NCBI RefSeq assembly: GCF_001625215.2
Contig: NC_030385.2
Location: 41,379,598 to 41,443,597 of the forward strand
DNA length: 64,000 bases
Reading direction: 5' to 3'
DNA from: Daucus carota subsp. sativus
Lineage: Eukaryota; Streptophyta; Magnoliopsida; Apiales; Apiaceae
Shown here: one piece after another, positions 974-34,683 of the stretch
How the letters are laid out: each line of letters opens with the position of its first letter
Position numbering within the stretch: position 1 is the first letter of the stretch
Program-made: the position numbers and the translations under genes
The notes under the pieces: model-generated
What the model saw: the letters and a program-made list of their open reading frames with translations, nothing else
Databases searched by the model: none
What the model was told of the DNA's origin: nothing

Positions 974-1200
974 AAAACGCTACAGCTAGTAGCGTTTTGT
1001 TTTAAATTATAATTTATATATTACCTAGACGCTAATGCGTCTAGCGTTTTGATTTTAAACATTTAAAAAAATAATTAGGTTAAAACGCTACTTCCAGTAG
1101 CGTTTGGTTTTAATATATTACTCAGACGCTATTGCGTCTAGCGTATGGCATATAAAATATAATTTATGTATTAGCTAGACGCTATTGCGTCTTGCGTTTT
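974..1200. repeat. 5' block of AACGCTA/TAGCGTT palindromes
   Basis: At least five imperfect hairpins, spaced about 35-50 bp apart, start near 974, 1028, 1082, 1125 and 1175. Typical arms are AACGCTAC and GTAGCGTT, or GACGCTA and TAGCGTT, around a 4-8 bp loop. They end just before the transposase leader. The matching block downstream of the gene makes them candidate subterminal transposase-binding repeats, which is inference. Confidence 0.8.
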
Positions 1201-1355: not shown

Positions 1356-3741
1356 ATGGCTTCCGGTTCGGGTTCGGGCTCGGGTTCGAAAGCTGGGAAT
1401 ACGGTTGTTGGATGGATATACCATGACGGTAATATTATCGAATCTCAATTAGAAGGTTTTATTTATGATAAACCTGTTTCAAAGCATGTTAAGCTCGATT
1501 TATCTATGAATTATGCCAATTTATGTGCTTTGTTACATTCCAAGTTGAAGATTGATAGTAGTAGTAGGTTGAGGATATTTTATAGGTCTAAAAATCCCGA
1601 TAATTTGAAATTCGGGATTATACCTATTGAGGATGATGATGATGTAGAATTAATGTTTGGTGTTGTGGTGTCAAAAGGGATGCCATTTTTTGTTGAACTT
1701 TATGTAGAGAAATTGTCTTGTGATGGAAATTTGGTAAGGAGTAGTTCGAGTGTGGGGGAGAAGAGTAGTGGGCGTGATTCGGGGGGTAGTCATTTTAGAC
1801 ATGATCAGGATGTGGGTGATAGCTTTATGTCTGTGGATACTTCCCATTTAGAGAGGATGACCTCATTCGACGATGTCGAGGTTGAAAATAATGAGGTCCC
1901 GTTGGAGTTGAAGGAGGGAAGGTTATTTAGCACGAAAGAGGATTTGATGCATGTGGTGAAGCAATACCACATTCAGAATCACTTAGAGATTGGAGTGATA
2001 CGATCAGATCCGAGTAGTTGGTATGTTGCTTGCAAGTATAGAAATGATGGTTGTATTTGGAAGTTGAAAGCTAGAAAGAGGACTTCACATGGTAAATTTC
2101 AAATCATGGAGAGTGTAGGACCACATACTTGCTTGAGCACTACCATCACACGAGATCATCCCAACTTGACAGCCTCGGAGATTGCTGGAGTGATTAAATC
2201 TCAAATTGTTGCTGATCCGACAATTAAGGAGAAGGTGTTGTTAGCCACTGCTAAAGATAAGTTTGGATATGAGCCGGGCCGAAAGAAGATTAGGAATGCA
2301 AAGAAGATTGCATTGGAGGATATTCATGGCTCGTGGGAAGGATCATATGAGGACTTGCCACATTTGATGGAAACTCTTCAGTCCTTCAATGTGGGCACGA
2401 AGGTGGAGTGGTGCTTTAAGGAGGATGATGCAGAGCACCTAGAGGTATGTTCTATCACCGTGTAATTTAATTCATTTTCATTAAGTATTTGGACTCCGTT
2501 ATTCATTTTCTAATGTAATGTTTGTTATTTATTTGGAACAGGAAGTGACATTTAGGAGATTGTTCTGGGCTTTTAAGCCATGCATTGATGGCTTCGAGTA
2601 TTGCAGACCCGTCATACTGATAGACGGGACTCATTTGTATGGACCATATCCGGGTGTTCTTCTGAGTGCAACAGCTGTAGATGGTTTTAGTCACATTCTA
2701 CCATTGGCGTGTGCTATAGTGGAGTCGGAGAACAACTCTAGCTGGGAGTGGTTCATGGATAGGTTGAGGAGCTTGGTGGTTGGTCGGAGGCACGGGATAT
2801 GTATCATTTCTGATAAACATTTAGGGATCATGGCAGCTATGCAGAAGGAGGGATGGTGTGAGCCACTTAATCATCATCGGTACTGTGTGAGACATTTTGC
2901 CACAAACTTTGCCACCAAATTCAAGAAAGCTGGATTGAAGGATAGATTGGTTGAGTTGGCATATCAAGTCCAGCCTAAGAAATTTGAACTACTATGGGGT
3001 GAGTTGTTGGCACTAGAGCCTCGAGCACTTGCATGGTTTGAGGACAAACCAGTAAGGAACTGGTCACTGGCACATGACTACGAGCATCATCGTTTTGGCA
3101 TCATGACTACCAACCATGCTGAGAGTTGGAACAATGCAATTGTCGATGCTCGGAGGCTCCCGCTTACTTCATTGGTGCGAGTACTATTCCATAAGACGGT
3201 TGAGTACTTTGATCAACGTCGCCTTGAGATTGCAACACAAGTATCGAAAGGTAATATTTTCACCAAATATGCATCCCATCTCTTGAACCGTGCTGTAAGA
3301 CGTTCCACGGGTCATAGTGTGAAGATATTTGATCGGGGGACTTGGTTATTCCAAGTAGTTACAAGGAAGGATGGGTTGAAAGGGGGAAACACACACACGG
3401 TTCGTCTTATGGAGTCTAGTTGTACTTGTGGAAAATTTCAAGCTTATAGAATCCCTTGCTCCCATGTAATTGCATGTTGTTCACATGTGAGGATGGACTT
3501 CCATGGGTTTGTTGGTGATTGGTATAAGTTAGAGAACCAATCGAAGATTTATAATGGTATCTTTGAGCCAATTCCAAACAAGGGTGATTTTCGATATCCT
3601 ACCGAGCTTGCTTTCCCGAGAGTTGTGCATGACCCCGATATGGAGAAGAAGAAGGGCCGAAGAAAATCAACGAGGTACAAGAACGAGATGGATTTCCAGA
3701 GCCGGGGAAAGCATGGAGGGACTTCATCGAGAGATAGTTGA
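1356..3741 (+). CDS. Mutator-like (MuDR-type) transposase, two exons
   Basis: This encodes a transposase that should bind the ends of its element in the nucleus and cut and insert it. Exon 1 is 1356-2444 and exon 2 is 2542-3741; the donor AGAG|GTATGT and acceptor GAACAG|GAAG join in phase 0 to give 762 residues. Residues about 16-120 form a plant MULE N-terminal region. Residues about 186-260 are a MuDR/FAR1-like zinc-binding domain (C226, C233, H257, C259 visible). The MULE DDE domain carries VILIDGTHL (D391) and IISDKH (D454), with a glutamate candidate in FELLWGELL. A SWIM zinc finger lies at C657, C659, C669 and H671 (CTCGKF...PCSHV). No stop interrupts the reading frame. A domesticated relative is possible, but the flanking palindromes favour an active-type transposon. 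Confidence 0.9.
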
Positions 3742-4500
3742 TTCTCTAGTTGTTTTTATTGTTGTAGTACTATGGTTCAAGTACAATTTGATATGGTTGT
3801 TTGAATTTCGCGAAAATTGGAATTGTATGAATGATTTATGATATAAATTAAATTTTATGTTGTTATGAATTAGTTTATATTGTCCATGCAATTTACATTG
3901 AATTGGTGTTGTAAAGTTTTGGTTTTTAAGTTGCGGTTGGAGTTTTGGTTTTTTAGTGGCAGAAGGCAGTAGCTTCTGCCTTGTTTTCAAAAATTTAACA
4001 GGACAACGCTATTAGGTGTAGCGTTTTAGTGTTTTTATTGAACTTAGACGCTGCACGGTGTAGCGTTTCCGCTGTTTAACAAAAAATCTATATTTAGAAC
4101 TGAGACGCTACACCGCGTAGCGTTTTTGTTGATTTAAAGTCGACCCCGGTAACAAAGAAGGAATCCATAAAAACTTAGGATCCGACACCATGATAAAATA
4201 CTACCCTCATGATTAGACCATGTCCCTGAGATTTGATAAAAGAAAGGTGCATTAGCGGTTAATACGTTGTAATTGGATAAGTTATTAGGAATATGACGGA
4301 ACGAAAGACCAAGGAAAGAAAGAAGAATGCACCAAAATGCAAGTGCTGCACCAAACACTGGTGGTTGTTTCTTGACGCTATACGATGTAGCGTTTGTTGT
4401 TTTAACAAAAAAAACAACTTTTTTGTAACTTAGACGCTACACGATGTAGCGTTTTTGTTGTTTTAACAAAAACGCTACTCTAAAAACGTCTCTACTGGTT
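3742..4500. repeat. 3' block of AACGCTA/TAGCGTT palindromes
   Basis: After the stop codon and about 250 bp of untranslated AT-rich DNA, hairpins of the same class as the 5' block occur near 4003, 4045, 4101, 4374 and 4431, with a last half-unit near 4466. The loops differ from the 5' set: GTGTAGCG and GATGTAGCG arms dominate here, while GCGTCTAGCG dominates upstream. The ccmFN fragment sits between the third and fourth hairpins. Confidence 0.8.
4139..4373 (-). pseudogene. ccmFN: Fragment of mitochondrial ccmFN (cytochrome c maturation) in nuclear DNA
   Basis: Read on the minus strand, this stretch is open and encodes a recognisable piece of plant mitochondrial CcmFN, the haem-lyase-like membrane subunit of cytochrome c maturation. 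Telling segments are [31 protein letters not shown] and [14 protein letters not shown], followed by [12 protein letters not shown]. The match begins just inside the GACGCTA hairpin at about 4374 and stops near 4139. It covers only about 78 codons near the N-terminal part of the gene, with no start codon of its own. I recognised it from the known protein family; no search was run. It is a nuclear copy of mitochondrial DNA or a fragment carried by the MULE, and it is not expected to be functional. Confidence 0.88.
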
Positions 4501-6201: not shown

Positions 6202-8190
6202 ATGAAGAATGCAGAGATAATATTTGTTCCTGCCCCGGGAAGAGGACACCTAATCTACATGGTTGAGTTAGCTAAGTTATTCATCCAGAGAAATGAATCT
6301 GTTTCTGTTACAATTTTCATCATCAAGTTCCCTTTTGACACAGGCGTTAGTTCATATATGAAATCGCTTTCAAACCACCCTATGCCGAGATTTACCATTC
6401 TAGAAATTCCGCCAAGCTATTCAGAGTTATACAAATCTCATAATTTCCACACATTGTTCTCAGCTTTTATTGAAGGCCATGTGACAAATGTGAGGGATCA
6501 AGTTATGGCGATGAGGCAACCTGATTACCCTACTCGAGTAGCTGGATTGGTAGTAGACATATTTTGTGTTTCGATGATTGATGTGGCTAAAGAATTAAGC
6601 GTTCCCACGTATGTTTACTCGGCCTCAGGGGCTGGTTTTCTAAGCATTGTTTTACATCTCCAAGCCATGACGGATTTTCAAGAGGAAGATATTAGTGAGT
6701 ATGAGAATTCGGATGCTCAATTATCAGTTCCTTATTTCAGAAACCAGGTTCCTGCTAAGGTCTTGCCAGCTATATGTCTGGACAAGGCAGGATCTCAACT
6801 GATGTTACTGTGTGCACGCAAGTTCAGAGAGACTAAAGGGCTAATTATTAATACATTCGCGGAGCTGGAGACGTATGCTGTTGAGTCACTGATGACAGAT
6901 AATAAGATCCCTCCTGTTTATGCTGTGGGACCAAACCTAGATATCAGTGCTGGAGATGAAGATTGCGATGAAGTTGCAGATATTCTGAAATGGTTGGATG
7001 AAAAGCCTCTCTCATCAGTTGTGTTCTTGTGCTTTGGGAGCTTTGGAAGTTTTCCTCAAGATCAGGTTTATTTCTTATTGTATTATTATCTGTTATGTTT
7101 AAACTAACTGCCTCCATTAAGCAAGGACCAAGAACATGACAATCTTCAATTACTGGAACAGTTGAAGGAGATTGCACTTGCTCTGGAGCACAGCGGACAC
7201 CCCTTCTTGTGGTCGCTACGTCCTGTTTCAACAGAAAGCCACCTTAAAAAGTACACAGATTTGGATGAAATTCTCCCTCCTGGATTCTTGGAAAGAACAT
7301 CAGGAACTGGAAAGATTATCGGATGGGCCCCACAAGTTGCTGTGCTGTCACACCCTGCAGTAGGAGGCTTCGTCTCCCACTGCGGTTGGAACTCTATACT
7401 GGAGAGTGTGTGGTTTGGAGTGCCCATGGCAACGTGGCCATTGTACGCGGAGCAGCAACTGAATGCTTTTGAAATGGTGAATGAGTTGGGAATGGCAGTG
7501 GATATTTGCATAGACTATGAACATCATGTATTTTATAAAGGTGAGGTCAAGATTATCGATTCTAAGATTGTTGAGTCAAAGATAAGGGAGGTAATGGAGG
7601 ATGGAAGTGATATAAGGAAGAAAGTGACTGAGATTAAGGGGAAGAGCAGGAATGCTATGGCAGAGAATGGATCGTCATGCATTAATTTGGGGCGGCTAAT
7701 TGAGGACATCATAGCATCATAAAATTAGTCGTGTCTAGCTGCCAAATTTCTTTCTTGCTTATAAGTGTATGTTTACCAAGTTTATAAGTTCAGAAACAGT
7801 CCTGTCAATAACATATCAATACTCTAGAATCAAACCAATATTGCATCGGGGATGTACTTGACTACTTGTATGACAAAACATATAGGCGCTGGTATTCTCT
7901 ATAACACCACCACGTCCCCCTCCACCGTCATTGGTTGTAGAGTCAATAATATATCCAGGCATAATATCATTTTAGATTTATCTGTACTTATAAAATTTGT
8001 TTTGAGTTGTAACAAAGAAGTCAAAATCTTGATGCAATAATCCATATACTTTTTCATAGACATTGCAGAAAACATTTTATCTCAGACATATCAATGACCA
8101 AATTCTTCTACTGAATCTCAACAAGCAATTAGCTGAATCTTGTCGAAGAAGATGATCAGCCCATACTGTTGGTGCGACCTAGCAGCTAGC
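5960..8190 (+). repeat. Left arm of an inverted duplication containing UGT copy 1
   Basis: The arm matches 11750-14230 in inverted orientation. Shared tracts lie upstream of the gene (CTCAAGTGTTTACTTGTC and TGTTGAGCCAACCTTG), through both exons, in the 3' UTR (ATAAGTGTAT region near 7760), and beyond it (TTTTTCATAGACATTGC near 8050 and GAAGATGATCAGCCCAT near 8150). Between the upstream tract and the ATG the left arm is about 350 bp shorter than the right arm. Confidence 0.85.
6202..7722 (+). CDS. UDP-glycosyltransferase, UGT71-like (copy 1)
   Basis: This is a cytosolic family-1 enzyme that moves a sugar, usually glucose from UDP-glucose, to a small hydroxylated acceptor such as a phenolic or terpenoid; the acceptor cannot be read from sequence. 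Exon 1 is 6202-7065 (288 codons, ends TTTCCTCAAGATCAG|GT) and exon 2 is 7162-7722, phase 0, total 474 residues, normal for the family. The catalytic His is H16 in PAPGRGHL and its partner Asp is D119 in LVVDIF. The 44-residue PSPG sugar-donor box runs from WAPQ (343) to the final Gln (386), with HCGWNS in it. Exon 2 starts with TTG (Leu) where paralogues have GTG (Val). Intron position and sequence agree with the UGT71 group, but the subfamily number is not assigned. It is the only + strand copy of four. Confidence 0.93.
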
Positions 8191-9417: not shown

Positions 9418-10506
9418 TTAGTGTTGACAATCAACCAATGTTGGTGCAGCTGCTAAAACCAGAGAAGTCTGTTTCTGTTGTTGCTGCGGTTGTTGCTGTT
9501 GCTGTTGTTGCGGGTTCTGCTGCTGTGAAGAAAATGAATAAGAGGGTGATTCGAGGTTTTGCTTATGATGTTTATTTTCATCTTCTGTGGCAGCAGGAAG
9601 GTTGAGATCCAAGGACAAATTGACAGGACTACTAGTCTTGAGTTTCTTGGTTTCTTGATGATAATCGATGGGATCAATGGCAGAGATTGGATTTGGACAG
9701 AATGGTAGCAATGGCAGAGTCTTGGTGCTGGTGTTAGTAGTTGTAGCTGTGGCATTGCTGCGGTTGACAGGGGCGCCTCCACGATGGCGCCTCATGTGAC
9801 CACCTAAGGCCTGTCCGGATGAGAACTCTGTCCCACAAATCGCGCATTCATGTACCCTGGGGGAGTACTTGTTGTAATCCGCGTTGGTGAATGGTACATT
9901 AGGCCTAGTTGTTAGTTGAAGAGACAGAGAGGAAGCGGAGAAACTTCTCTTGAATGGTGGTGGCTGATCTTCGTCTTCGTCTGAAATTATAAGCCTCGGC
10001 TTGTTCTCCAAGGCCGCGTTAACGTTCTTAGGCTTGCGGTGACTAGCCCGATGACCTCCTAGAGCCTGGAAAGAAGGGAAGGTTCGGTTGCATGTTTTGC
10101 ATTGGTAGACATAAATGCCTGTTTTGCCATTAGTACTTGTGCTTGTTTCCAAGTACTTTTTGCTAGTGAATTTATAAGGAACTAGCCCGAAATGTGAATC
10201 ATTTTTGGGACCACCTTGCGCCAATAGCAACAAGCATTTGGCCATGTCTTCCTCCTCCTCCGTGGTGCCAGGCCCAGCCGAGTCCTCGTCGCTCGTGGTG
10301 GTGCTAGTCACATAATCCCCTCCTGCATTGTTGCTTGAAGAATTTGCAGGTGCAACTGAGAATGGTAAGGGTGATTGTGGCCTCTGTCTCTTAGTCCGCT
10401 TCCCTTTCAAGATATTGGAAGGCGTGCTCATCGCGACAGGATCACCTTCTCGGGCTTCATGTTGCTGTGCATTGTGTTCCTCCTCCTCCACCATGAGCAA
10501 AGACAT
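9418..10506 (-). CDS. C2H2 zinc-finger transcription repressor, ZAT-like (C1-2i class)
   Basis: An intronless gene of 362 residues. Two plant-type fingers carry the QALGGH signature: C136-H156 (CKTCNRTFPSFQALGGH...) and C221-H241 (CAICGTEFSSGQALGGH...). A basic nuclear signal KGKRTKRQRP lies at about 34-43, an acidic/leucine stretch EEEDMAKCLLLLAQ at about 84-97, and an EAR repression motif LSLDLNLPA at about 297-305. The C-terminus is rich in glutamine (residues about 328-346). By family it would bind DNA in the nucleus and repress stress- or development-related genes through EAR co-repressors. Most similar in layout to ZAT5-type proteins, by inference. The start at 10506 is the first Met in frame; Met5 or Met26 are alternatives. 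It lies alone inside the spacer of the inverted UGT duplication. Confidence 0.93.
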   Translation of the reverse strand: MSLLMVEEEEHNAQQHEAREGDPVAMSTPSNILKGKRTKRQRPQSPLPFSVAPANSSSNNAGGDYVTSTTTSDEDSAGPGTTEEEEDMAKCLLLLAQGGPKNDSHFGLVPYKFTSKKYLETSTSTNGKTGIYVYQCKTCNRTFPSFQALGGHRASHRKPKNVNAALENKPRLIISDEDEDQPPPFKRSFSASSLSLQLTTRPNVPFTNADYNKYSPRVHECAICGTEFSSGQALGGHMRRHRGGAPVNRSNATATTTNTSTKTLPLLPFCPNPISAIDPIDYHQETKKLKTSSPVNLSLDLNLPAATEDENKHHKQNLESPSYSFSSQQQNPQQQQQQQPQQQQKQTSLVLAAAPTLVDCQH

Positions 10507-15713: not shown

Positions 15714-17206
15714 TTATGTTGCTAAGATGTCCTCAATTAGCCGTCCCAAATTAACATAAGACGATCCATTCTCTGCCACTGCAGCGCGGCTCTTCCCCTT
15801 GATCTCAGCAACTCTCTTTCTAATGTCACTTCCATCTTTCATCACCTCATTTATCTTTGACTTAATGATCTCAGCCTCAACAATTAGCTCACATTTGGAA
15901 AATCCATGATGCGCATAGTCCATGCAAATATCCACTGCCAATCCCAACTCACTCACCATTTCAAAAGCATTCAATTGCTGCTCTGCATAGGAAGGCCATG
16001 TCGCCATGGGGACTCCAAACCACACACTCTCTAGTATGGAGTTCCAACCGCAGTGGGAGACGAAGCCTCCCACTGCACGGTGTGAGAGCACCGCCAGCTG
16101 TGGAGCCCATCCAATGATTTTTCCAGTTCCTGATGTTCTTTCCAAGAATCCAGGAGGGAGAATATCATCCAAGTTTGTATATTTGCTGAGGTGGCCTTCT
16201 TTTTTTACTGGACGTAGCGACCACAAGAAGGGGTGTCCGCTATGCTCCAGAGCAAGTGCAATTTCCTTCACCTGTTCCAATAATTAAAGTTAGTCATTCT
16301 ACAATGCAAGATGACAAAAATGTAGAAAAATTAGAAAAGCACCTGATCCTCTGGAAAACCCCCAAAGGTCCCAAAGCACAAAAACACTACAGATGAGAGT
16401 GGTTTCTCATCCAACCATTTGAGAATGTCTGCAGCTTCATCCGAATCTTGACCTCTACTGCTGAGATTCAGATTTGGTCCGACAGAATAAACTGGAGGGA
16501 TCCTGTCATCCGCCATAAGTGATTCAACAACATATGCCTCCAGCTCCACAAATGTGTTCACTATAAGCCCTTTAGTCTCTCTGAACTTGCGCCCCCACAA
16601 TAGCGTTATTTCAGACCCTCCTTGGTCCAGACACATAGCTGGCAAGACCTTAGCAGGAACCTGGTTTCTGAAATAAGGAACAGATAATTCAGCATCCGGA
16701 TTCTTGTACTCGCCCATATCCTTGTTTTCATAATCCTTCATGGCTTGGAGATGTAATAAAATGCCAAGATAATCAGCACCAGAGGTTGAGTAAACATATG
16801 ATGGAATGTTGAGCTCCTTGGCCATATCAATCATTGAAACAGCAAATATATCTAGAATGAATGCTGCTATCCGAGTGGACTGATCAGCCCGAGTCATGGC
16901 AACAACTTGGTCTCTCACATTCGTGACATGGCTCTTCATAAAATTGTAGAAAACGGTGTGGTGGGACTGAGACTTGTATGATTCAGAATCGCTTGGTGGG
17001 ATCTCCAGAGTGGAGAGTCTTGGAGTAGGGTTGTTGGAAAGTGATTCGACGTAGGATGTTACACCCATGTCATAAGGGAACTTGATGATGCAAATGGTAA
17101 CTGATAGAGATTCATCTCTACTGATGAGTGTCTTGGCCAACTCAACCATGGATATAAGGTGTCCCATGGCTGGGGCAGGAACAAATATCAGCTCCGCATT
17201 CTTCAT
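15714..17206 (-). CDS. UDP-glycosyltransferase, UGT71-like (copy 3)
   Basis: Intact. Exon 1 is 17206-16343 (288 codons, ends GAGGATCAG|GT) and exon 2 is 16271-15714; total 473 residues. I chose the ATG at 17206 (MKNAEL...) because all paralogues start there; an upstream in-frame extension to 17230 has only GTG. Catalytic His in PAPAMGHL, Asp in FILDIF, and a complete PSPG box (WAPQLAVLSH...HCGWNS...EQ). The intron is short, 71 bp. It differs from copies 1 and 2 mostly in the N-terminal acceptor-binding half (for example the stretch after TSYVESLSNN), so a different acceptor is plausible. It looks like the least damaged minus-strand member of the cluster. Confidence 0.93.
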
Positions 17207-18401
17207 TTCTCTAGTCCCGAATCCCTGCACAAGATTTCAAGATACTAGTACAGATGAATCGAGCTCTGAGATGCTTTTTAGGCCTTTTGCTAGTAAACTT
17301 GAACCACGGAACTAATCCTCTTTATAATGACTTGACAAATACTACCTCTGTCACTTTCTTTTCCGTTATATCAATTTCTGTGGTTCAAATTGAAGTAAAA
17401 CATTCAATTCTAGAAACCGTGTTAATCAAACTGGCTCATATTAACACGAACTTGCTTTTTTAGTCTAAGGTAGCCTACGGAAAATAATGAAATTGGTCTT
17501 TATTTGTGAACTGCAGCAGTGAAAGATAGTGCAATGATTCTTGTTTGAGAAATTGACAAGGAGACTAATTCAAATATCGAGTCCCAGACTCAAAGTTTGC
17601 TTTCCACGAACCAAAGTTCACAATAGCAACACGTCTCGTGTAAAATTTGAACCATCAAATATGCTGTCTCATACTTCCGTAAGTTCACAAACGAGTGCAC
17701 AAAAGCACCAGCGTTGAGGGGACCAATTTTATTTATTTTTTATTTTTTGGTTTGACGCATGACAGTTCATTTACAAAGTTGACAACTACATATTTGATCC
17801 TGAGCACACAAAAAAAGATATTCATAATGGGTAACTTTCAGAGATGTTAACATCTTGGATTTCCCCATGCAAGATGCAAGCAAGCATGCATGTCTAATGG
17901 GTGAGTCCTGGACCAGTAACCCCATACTGCTCTTGTGGGTAATCGAATTTGAAAATGTTGGCATAATAAAATTCGAAGTAAATATAATATTCGAGTTGAA
18001 TTCAGAGAATAATTCAGTGGAATTTAAATCATATCAGCGTGCAGATTAATTTATGGATTGATGGTGCATCTGTGTGATGTGTTTGTATCCAAATCTCTGC
18101 ATTCAGATCGTGCATGGAGGGCTCTAAATTGATCAGGACTATCCGGTGTCTCGGGGCCAAGCATACTCTAAAACTATCAAAGAGAAGAATGCAATCAAAT
18201 TGCACAAAACAAAAAGAGAAGATGAATATACAGAACTATATAGTATACAAGGCATCAACCAATGACAGAGGCAAGGAAGTAAAACAGATATGACATGTAT
18301 TTTAATCTTGTTCTGTAATAAACATATATTCCAAGAATTAAACATGAATTGCAGTATAAAACTTATGAAACTCAAGAACGAATCGAAATATTGGCAGTAT
18401 C
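17207..18401. other. Spacer between UGT copies 3 and 4
   Basis: No gene seen. Short frames on both strands near 17770-18050 overlap each other and have no protein features. Upstream elements of copy 3 should lie in the first few hundred bases. Confidence 0.5.
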
Positions 18402-20102
18402 TTATGTTGCAATGATGTCCTCAATTAGGCGGCCCAAACTAATGTAAGATGATCCATTCTCTGCCACTGCAGCTCTGCTCTTCCCCTTCATTTCACTTAC
18501 TCTCTTCCTTATTTCACTCCCATCTTTCATTACCTCCCTTATCTTTGATTCGATCATCTTCGCATCAATAACTACTGCAATTTTGGAGAATAATTGGTGT
18601 TCATAGTCTATGCTAATATCCACTGCCATTTCCAACTCATTTACCATTTCAAAAGCATTCAGTTGCTGCTCCGCGTACAATGACCAGGTCGCGACAGGCA
18701 CTCCAAACCACACACTCTCTAGTATGGAGTTCCACCCGCAGTGGGAGACGAAGCCTCCTACTGCAGAGTGTGACAGTACTGCAACCTGGGGAGCCCAGCC
18801 GATTATTTTTCCGGTTCCTGATGTCCTTTCGAGGAATCCAGGAGGGAGAATATCATCCAGGTTTTTATACTTGTTTAGGTGGCTTTCGATTCCAAGTGGA
18901 CGTAGTGACCACAAGAAGGGGTGGCCGCTGTGCTCCAGAGCAAGTGCAATCTCCTTCACCTGTTCCAAAATAAATAAAGTTAGTCATGTTGCACTTTGCT
19001 ATTTTAATACAGAACTTGGTTCTTTTTTCGGATTCCTAAATCATTTTTTGATGAACTAAGTTTATGTTAGAATATTATATGATCCTGCTAAGCCCCTTTT
19101 CTAAAACCTTGAAATTTGGGGAGAATTGGACAATTGGTGACTTAACATGGAATCAGACCACTCTCGACCTAAAAATAGGCTTTTGAGTGAGGATGAATGT
19201 CAGAACACTATATGAATGTTAGAACTATTTTGGATATGAAAAAAAGCACCTGAACTTCAGTAAAACTACCAAAGCTTCCAAAGCACAAAAACACTACTGA
19301 CGATACTGGTTTTCCATCCAACCATTTCAGAATCTCTGCAACTTCATCGCTATTCTGCCTTGCACTGGTAAGATTCAAGTTTGGTCCCACAGCATACACC
19401 GAAGGAACCTTATCATCTGCCACAAGAGACTGAACAGCAAACGTTTCCAGCTCCGCAAACGTGTTCACAATAATCCCTTATAGTCTCCCTAAACTTGCGT
19501 CCACACGATAACATCACTTGAGACCCTTTCTCATCCAAACATATAGCTGGCAAGACCTTAGCGGGCACCCGATTATTAAAACAACAAACAGACAATTCAG
19601 CATCCGAATCCTTGTACTCGTAAATATCCTCATTTTCATAATCAGTCAATCCCTGGAGATGGAACAGAACGCCAAGATAACTCGCGCCTGAAGTGAAGTA
19701 AACATACGAAGGAATGTTCAATTCCTTAGCCATATCAATCATCGAGACACAGAAAACGTCCAGGACTAATGCAGCCACTGCGCGATCAGGCTGAGCCATC
19801 ACTGCATTTTTCACAATTGTAACATGGCTGTCAATAAAAGTGGGGATCATGGTGTAGTAAGACTCGAACTTGTAGGCCTCAGAGCTGCTAAGTGGAACTT
19901 CCAAAATGGCGAGCCGCGGAATAGGATTTGTTTCCAGTGATTCGATGTAGGAATTCACCCCTGTATCGTAAGGGAACTTCATGATAAAAATTGTAACCGA
20001 GAGAGATTGATTCCGAGATATGAGTAGCTTGGCTAACTCCACCATTGAAATCAGGTGTCCCCTTACAGGAGCAGGAATAAATATCAGCTCTGCATTCTTC
20101 AT
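18402..20102 (-). pseudogene. UGT71-like glycosyltransferase (copy 4), broken by a one-base insertion
   Basis: Same two-exon plan as its neighbours: exon 1 20102-19250 and exon 2 18959-18402, with a 290-bp intron. The PSPG box ([10 protein letters not shown]...HCGWNS...EQ) and the N-terminal catalytic His (PAPVRGHL) are present. Near 19480 an extra A (CCCTTATAGTC where copy 3 has CCCTTTAGTC) shifts the frame after RKFRET, so translation stops after residue 229 at 19413. The rest of exon 1 (NTFAELETFAVQSLVADD...) continues in the next frame. All else is well preserved, so the break is recent or is a sequencing error. As written it would not make a donor-binding domain. Confidence 0.85.
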
Positions 20103-33000: not shown

Positions 33001-33568
33001 ATGAACATACAGGGAATTCAAATCGAAAACAATAATTAAAAAGAAAAATACACCTGACCTATCTCAAGATCTTGGTAAATAACAGACTCAAACTTTTTAG
33101 CATGGTTAAATTTTGATTTTCAAATACTGTAGTAATAATCTCTCTCTCTCCACATCCATCTCTCCCCTCTCTCTCGCCCTCTCCCTCTCCCTCGGTCGCC
33201 CTCCCCCCCTCTCTCTCTCGCCCTCTCCCACTCTCTCCCCCCCCCCTCTCTCCCGCCTTCTCCCACTCCCCCCCTCTCTCCCCATTTCTCTCTCTCTCGC
33301 CCTCTCCCACTCTCTTTCCTCTCTCTCCCACACCCACACACAAACAAACAAACAATAAATAAAGATAATAAGAAGTACCTATGGTAGGGGAAAGATCTTG
33401 AAGAGAATACTGACAATCCGAGATCATGAAACTAAGCAGAAGACTACTCTTGCCCACACCAGAATCACCAATCAACAAAATCTTGAAAGAATAATCATAA
33501 CTACTTGGACTTATACTCCCCCCTCCATTCCCTCTACTAACCAACTTCTTCGACGAAGAAGAATCCAT
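30009..33568 (-). CDS. RABC1: RAB GTPase, RABC/RAB18 class
   Basis: A small GTP-binding membrane-traffic switch. Six exons: 33568-33379, 32314-32246, 31739-31674, 31256-31135, 30940-30812, 30116-30009; phases agree and give 227 residues. G boxes: GDSGVGKS (P-loop), PTIGVDFK (switch I), WDTAGQE (G3), NKVD (G4) and ECSAK (G5); the C-terminus CCS is a double-Cys prenylation site. [23 protein letters not shown] and [15 protein letters not shown] place it nearest Arabidopsis RABC1. Start: ATG at 33568 (MDSSSS); upstream frame has only GTG. Two oddities are four extra residues before switch I ([16 protein letters not shown]) and Gly for Arg in QERFGTL (usually QERFRTL). The long open frame through intron 1 is an artefact of the CT repeat. 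The gene symbol is by family resemblance. Confidence 0.92.
32447..32910. mobile_element. MITE in intron 1 of the RAB gene, with internal repeats
   Basis: Inverted ends AGGGGTGTATTCGATTGGGA (left) and TCCCAATCCAATACACCCCT (right). The interior repeats a unit of about 50 bp, AATCCCAATTGAATACC followed by GATTTTAATGGATTTAAA-like sequence, four times between 32690 and 32870. This makes the element partly a tandem array of its own termini. The end sequence suggests a PIF/Harbinger- or hAT-type MITE; I could not define the target duplication. Confidence 0.75.
33139..33352. repeat. CT-rich microsatellite in intron 1 of the RAB gene
   Basis: About 200 bp of imperfect (CT)n with CCCTCTCTCTCGCC-type units, ending in (CACA)n and (AAACA)n. 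Long frames on either strand here encode only low-complexity Arg/Glu or Leu/Ser/Pro and are not genes. Confidence 0.9.
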
Positions 33569-34683
33569 CACACAAATCACAATCCCCACCCAACAATATC
33601 TATATCCTCTCTATACTCATCACCAGCTACTATCTTCTTCGACAAAAACAATATTATTTTCCACAACCAAAAATATTATACTACAACATAAAATGAAATA
33701 AATCTTAGGTTGTTTTGTGTGTAGAAGTACAAATCAAAAGGGGAGAAAAATATTGTAGTGAACAAGTTGAAGCTATACATGCAGACAGAGGATATATAGA
33801 GAGGCCAAGTACTATGTATGTTGTGGACAAATGTTTTCTTTTTCTAAGGAAACGGTTGTAATGACATGATCCAGAGGGGCCCGCATGACCCCTTTTTCGG
33901 CATTGTTTGTTTGTCATCTTATTTCATCCATATGGCTGTTTCTTTTGTTATTGGTTTCTCGTTTCTTAAAGTATTGAGCCGAACAGGCCCTTTCAGCTTT
34001 GTTCCCACCGTGTCTCGCTTTGCTACCAAAATATTTAAGTTTTGATTTGATGCTACGCCGTATACACTCGAGATACTCCTGTACAGTTTTGCAAGTCGAT
34101 CGTTTGATTTTTTTTTTTCATTCAACTTTCAAAAATTTAAGTATATGTTTAATATTTTTCAAAAAAAAGTATATATTTAATATTTTAATATTTTTTTATT
34201 TTGATAAAAATAAAATAGAATACTCCTTCCAAGTATATATGAAAAATTTTTAATCTCTTAATATTTTGATTTTCAAATTTTCATATTCAAGAGTTTCTAA
34301 TATCATTCTATTAAATACTAGTTATATATTCACTACTTACTTTTACATTGTTTTAAAGAAAATAATTTAAAATAAAAATAAAATCGAACTCTTTGATTTT
34401 CAACATTTTTCTCGGAAACAATCTAAGAAAACTTACCTTCTCAATTTCTTTTATAAATTTCAAAGTTTCCCTGTAGACTTGGACATCAAATAAGTTTCAA
34501 TGCAATCAAATCTATTTACGAAACTGTGATCGGAATCTTATTTGTTTCAAACGGTGATGTATACTATATTTGTAAATTATTACAAATTTGGCTTTTAATA
34601 GTTAAATTTTTTTAATATTTGAAGTACATGTGCAGGAGTAGTAAATTGACTGGTTTGACCAAGAGAGTAGATAAGGAAAAAGA

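Follow-up and report, generated by a model that had tools for sequence, protein, structure and literature searches.

A short piece of mitochondrial ccmFN interrupts the palindrome array of a MULE and is probably a NUMT

The window, which is the whole 64-kb stretch of DNA that was analysed, looks like nuclear plant DNA, judging from its content of a MULE transposase gene with accompanying palindromes, several UDP-glycosyltransferase open reading frames (ORFs) and a zinc-finger ORF. The window begins with a tandem array (positions 1-715) with a period of 197 bp, comprising 3.6 copies with 97% matches, and its units contain telomere-like stretches such as CCTAAACCCTAA. This array stops about 260 bp upstream of the first MULE palindrome. 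The UDP-glycosyltransferase ORFs form a cluster at 6202-7722 on the plus strand, and at 15714-17230 and 18402-20102 on the minus strand. The Pfam family UDPGT was found in three of these ORFs (7162-7722, 15714-16280, and 18402-18968), and the neighbouring ORFs 16331-17230 and 19413-20102 showed no Pfam match. ORF 6202-7107 gave no Pfam match either, but UGT71G1 (E 1.4e-62) is among the plant glycosyltransferase structures that it matches; UGT71AP2 was also among the plant glycosyltransferase matches of one UDP-glycosyltransferase ORF. The zinc-finger ORF, of the C2H2 type, is located on the minus strand at 9418-10506, encodes 362 amino acids, and contains, at 9469-9526, short tandem repeats of the CTGTTGCTG type. 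Further downstream, between 24378 and 24688, several short arrays of TTGCAACC- and GGTTGCAA-like words were found, with units of mostly 12 and 21 bp, which are possibly the repeat-rich end of another element. Finally, a minus-strand ORF at 33059-33589 overlaps a C+T-rich tandem array at 33139-33327. The start of this ORF is in part Ras/Roc-like, the Ras match (E 9.4e-5) lying just above its cut-off and the Roc match (E 5.1e-5) below its own.

The MULE transposase gene lies on the plus strand and is predicted to contain two exons, at 1356-2444 and 2542-3741, separated by a GT-AG intron (2445-2541) that we infer from the splice signals and the reading frame. The first exon encodes a MuDR-type DNA-binding domain (PF03108, E 7.3e-7), and the second exon a MULE domain (PF10551, E 5.8e-18) and a SWIM zinc finger (PF04434, E 2e-8). 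When joined across the predicted intron, the exons give a protein of 762 amino acids with no internal stops, in which the presumed catalytic D, D and E residues are in place. By its sequence, the element around the ccmFN fragment looks autonomous, with an apparently intact transposase. A search for exon 2 in viral_contigs gave a single pattern match, which remained unconfirmed.

A palindrome of the form ACGCT-(9)-AGCGT occurs five times upstream and five times downstream of the transposase gene. When one mismatch was allowed, ten such palindromes were observed in the 64 kb compared to 0.32 expected, and there were none elsewhere in the window. The 5' palindromes (977-1197, plus strand) start at 977, 1029, 1085, 1126 and 1179, the last one with a single mismatch, which amounts to start-to-start spacings of 52, 56, 41 and 53 bp. 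Those on the 3' side (4006-4452, plus strand) start at 4006, 4048, 4105, 4375 and 4434, with spacings of 42, 57, 270 and 59 bp, and it is this array that is interrupted by the ccmFN fragment. Seven of the ten palindromes, two of them from the 5' side, were folded as single strands, and all formed hairpins (-5.2 to -10.5 kcal/mol, with z values between -1.6 and -5.6). The first-pass annotation had placed the fragment between hairpin palindromes downstream of a MULE transposase, and this was borne out, since it sits between the third and fourth palindromes of the 3' side. By analogy, the palindromes are probably protein-binding sites, with the transposase or an accessory protein as candidate partner: transposase-recognition motifs have been suggested in MULE flanks (PMC4334395, available text), and VANC motifs are found in MULE flanks as well (PMC13317346, available text).

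The palindromes had also been called terminal, which is too strong a term. A search for flanking pairs and inverted repeats did not convincingly locate the ends of the element, terminal inverted repeats, or a target-site duplication. The scan for target-site duplications around the MULE returned 392 candidate pairs; the best of these were A+T-rich, and none was convincing. An exact 11-bp pair at 852/4748 may be due to chance, the end bases being alike at only 7 of 20 positions, and the best inverted match outside the palindromes was an A+T-rich stretch of 21 bp (E 0.003). Non-TIR MULEs lack long terminal repeats. Because the ends of the MULE were not found, the palindromes are better termed flanking or subterminal.

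The ccmFN fragment covers positions 4139-4373 on the minus strand. Its 235 bp comprise 78 codons and one further base, with neither stops nor frameshifts, and the direct translation, read from 4373 to 4139, ends with FLLCYRGR. We take the fragment to agree with residues about 23-100 of dicot CcmFN. The G+C content is 39.6%, compared to 35.6% for the 64-kb window. The open frame alone is no proof of identity, since stop-free stretches of this length are common: 257 of the 1276 windows of 235 bp sampled from the same 64 kb were free of stops in one of the six frames. The fragment matches the NCBIfam profiles TIGR00353 (CcmF/NrfE; E 6.7e-5) and TIGR03145 (E 6.9e-5), in both cases over the initial fifth of the profile and with scores far under the whole-protein cut-offs, as can be expected for a query of only ~79 amino acids. 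PRK10369 was the third profile match (E 0.012), Pfam Cytochrom_C_asm gave a sub-threshold hint (E 0.026), and a search of the PDB with the fragment matched nothing. Comparison with a plasmid collection by tblastn gave 147 records at E <= 1, with a top E of 4e-9. Among the best 20 of these 147 places, ten were annotated as heme lyase CcmF/NrfE, seven had no listed feature and three were in unannotated records. The identity to bacterial CcmF was 33-43% in the best 20 of 147 and below 60% in all 147, and this low identity indicates that the fragment is not bacterial and rules out bacterial contamination as its source. Searches for plant mitochondrial ccmFN in viral_contigs and genome_contigs gave 15 and 89 pattern matches, respectively, none of which was confirmed by tblastn.

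The identity of the fragment could also be assessed using the positions of known RNA-editing sites. A maize ccmFN table lists six sites that lie inside the fragment, 137 (Pro to Leu), 176 (Ser to Leu), 181 (Arg to Cys), 190 (Pro to Ser), 287 (Ser to Leu) and 302 (Pro to Leu) (PMC8949463, table as available), and this table, which contains the sites changed in one mutant, is an incomplete list of maize editing sites. Two of these positions, 287 and 302, appear as maize ccmFn editing sites in the available part of PMC7727260 as well. For rice, the accessible text of PMC7600565 gives codon 51 (Pro to Ser) and codon 88 (Pro to Leu), matching maize codons 64 and 101 in both spacing and change; its numbering of the first rice site is inconsistent, since the text has 121 where a figure legend has 151. 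In one register, the codons of the fragment are the right ones, either edited or unedited, at all six maize sites, and no other register gives more than two. As background, 1268 further strand stretches from the window were scored in all registers, and five matches were reached once, at most four in the other 1267, and six never, whereby it should be noted that the test was run after the fit had been spotted by eye, and that the background stretches were unmatched for open frame or composition. The matches to the CcmF family and the editing register together rule out a chance open frame at this position. The first-pass annotation had read about 78 minus-strand codons of CcmFN here, and that reading stood up to database search, both with the CcmF/NrfE profiles and with tblastn, and to the comparison with the six editing sites. 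At the sequence level, it is thus confirmed that the minus strand of 4139-4373 is a piece of plant mitochondrial CcmFN, derived from the mitochondrion. At sites 137, 176, 181, 190, 287 and 302 the fragment has T, C, C, C, C and T, respectively. In the codon numbering used for the fragment, which runs 13 below that of maize, these sites fall in codons 33, 46, 48, 51, 83 and 88. The C at four of the six sites points to DNA rather than to fully edited RNA, which would have T at all six, and the fragment probably came from mitochondrial DNA and not from edited mRNA.

The left junction of the insert is located at 4138/4139, directly after the third 3' palindrome and its remaining spacer (4105-4138), and the right junction at 4373/4374, where the segment containing the fourth 3' palindrome begins (4374-4395). 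These two palindromes are 270 bp apart, compared to 41-59 bp for the other seven spacings. Removal of the 235-bp insert leaves a spacing of 35 bp, which is shorter than any of the other seven, and the flanks joined without the insert align as one array unit with a shortened spacer. This remainder suggests that the spacer either has lost about 6-24 bp or was short from the outset; such an outcome can arise when filler is inserted at a double-strand break. As to a flanking duplication, a search for exact direct repeats of 3-11 bp lying no further than 3 bases from the two junctions gave none. The 64-kb window contains no second copy of the fragment, the best other match having an E-value of 0.14.

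The simple interruption of the array, the lack of a flanking duplication, the apparently missing spacer, and the fact that the whole insert consists of ccmFN all favour a later landing of the fragment in the element. On prior grounds as well, we consider it likely, with a probability of roughly 0.75, that the fragment is a short NUMT that was joined in during the repair of a double-strand break in the 3' palindrome array of the MULE. Such a break would have been repaired by end joining, with ~235 bp of mitochondrial DNA used as filler, and, going by the other seven spacings, the spacer would have been shortened by about 6-24 bp. The hairpin-forming palindromes may favour breakage at this spot. 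In primates, deletions flank 41 of 90 numts and are usually small, and insertion is mostly accompanied by the loss of no or 1-2 flanking bases (PMC2567098, available text), so that a deletion exceeding a few bases would rank among the larger ones. This possible excess over the primate norm, and the T at two of the six editing sites, count against a short NUMT. The junctions are also not decisive between landing and capture, since capture during MULE gap repair is expected to leave similar ones. Of the two routes considered in the first-pass annotation, later landing, as a NUMT, agrees with the plainly interrupted array, and capture by the element was left without positive support. The fragment is probably a passive passenger, which would move along if the MULE transposed.

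Capture by the MULE (transduplication) would mean that the element took up the piece in the course of gap repair, with a nuclear NUMT or mitochondrial DNA as the source, and that other copies of the element may carry it. We regard this as unlikely, even though the transposase of the element is apparently intact, the piece falls in the region bounded by the two palindrome arrays, within that on the 3' side, and MULEs are described as taking up host gene pieces (review PMC13317346, available text). No further copy of the piece is present in the window, nuclear flanking DNA from a donor locus is not evident, and the piece lies within a repeat array. Captured pieces in MULEs are usually located in the internal space, which counts against capture here. 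It is more doubtful still that the element gained ccmFN while moving, with arrays that break and are patched with any DNA, and that autonomous copies sharing these junctions are now taking mitochondrial DNA to new sites in the nucleus. The earlier suggestion that the MULE, if related copies share the fragment, has been spreading mitochondrial DNA found no positive support, with a single copy of the fragment in the 64-kb window.

Some NUMTs have turned out to be assembly artefacts (PMC7139807, available text), and mitochondrial reads could have been wrongly joined to nuclear sequence in the assembly or the library. For the fragment described here this is improbable, since both flanks belong to one repeat array of one element, and two false joins would be needed. 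Codon 28 of the fragment encodes V where, as we assume, A is usual, which resembles a decaying nuclear copy and also counts against such a chimera. An RNA-mediated retro-insertion of a ccmFN transcript would account for the T at sites 137 and 302, as edited RNA would have, yet these may be plain genomic T in the mitochondrial gene of this plant, and with C at the other four sites and the lack of a flanking duplication, we give this explanation very little weight. That the piece is a coding part of the MULE, within an open minus-strand frame of 100 codons (4436-4137) that stays open into the adjoining palindrome, is the least credible of all, since stop-free frames of 235 bp are frequent here, the frame lies downstream of the transposase in antisense orientation, and its openness is mostly inherited from ccmFN.

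The fragment resembles plant NUMTs in being a short part of a mitochondrial gene, for the most part unedited, that lies in apparent nuclear DNA without a flanking duplication, and in its location in a transposable element (compare the available text of PMC7037861), but differs from the plant NUMTs compared in that it lies within a MULE palindrome array. With Pack-MULEs and the Ulp1-carrying VANDAL/Kaonashi elements (PMC13317346, available text) it shares the presence of a foreign gene piece in a MULE; unlike these, the element described here keeps its transposase, and the piece is organellar, is situated in a repeat array, and occurs once in the window. The element itself is similar to non-TIR MULEs (VANDAL type, CitMule) in having a MULE transposase and no long terminal inverted repeats that could be found. 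As in CitMule (PMC4334395) and the MULEs with VANC motifs (PMC13317346), as far as the available texts describe them, motif clusters are present in the non-coding flanks, but here these motifs are palindromes of ~19-21 bp, five per side, and the likeness is one of features, not of a tree-based class.

MULE-captured mitochondrial DNA is not described in the titles and abstract openings that were surveyed, which is weak evidence of absence, and words for mitochondrion, organelle, chloroplast or plastid do not occur in the available main text of two gene-capture papers (PMC13317346, PMC8903248). The likely carriers are retrotransposons according to the review PMC7037861, in its available part. 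If copies of the element with identical junctions exist, this would be a DNA transposon multiplying organelle DNA. As it stands, the ccmFN insert is a common kind of event, one more short plant mitochondrial insertion, in a mildly curious place, where the regular palindrome array reveals both the site of the insertion and its rough size without the need for a relative.
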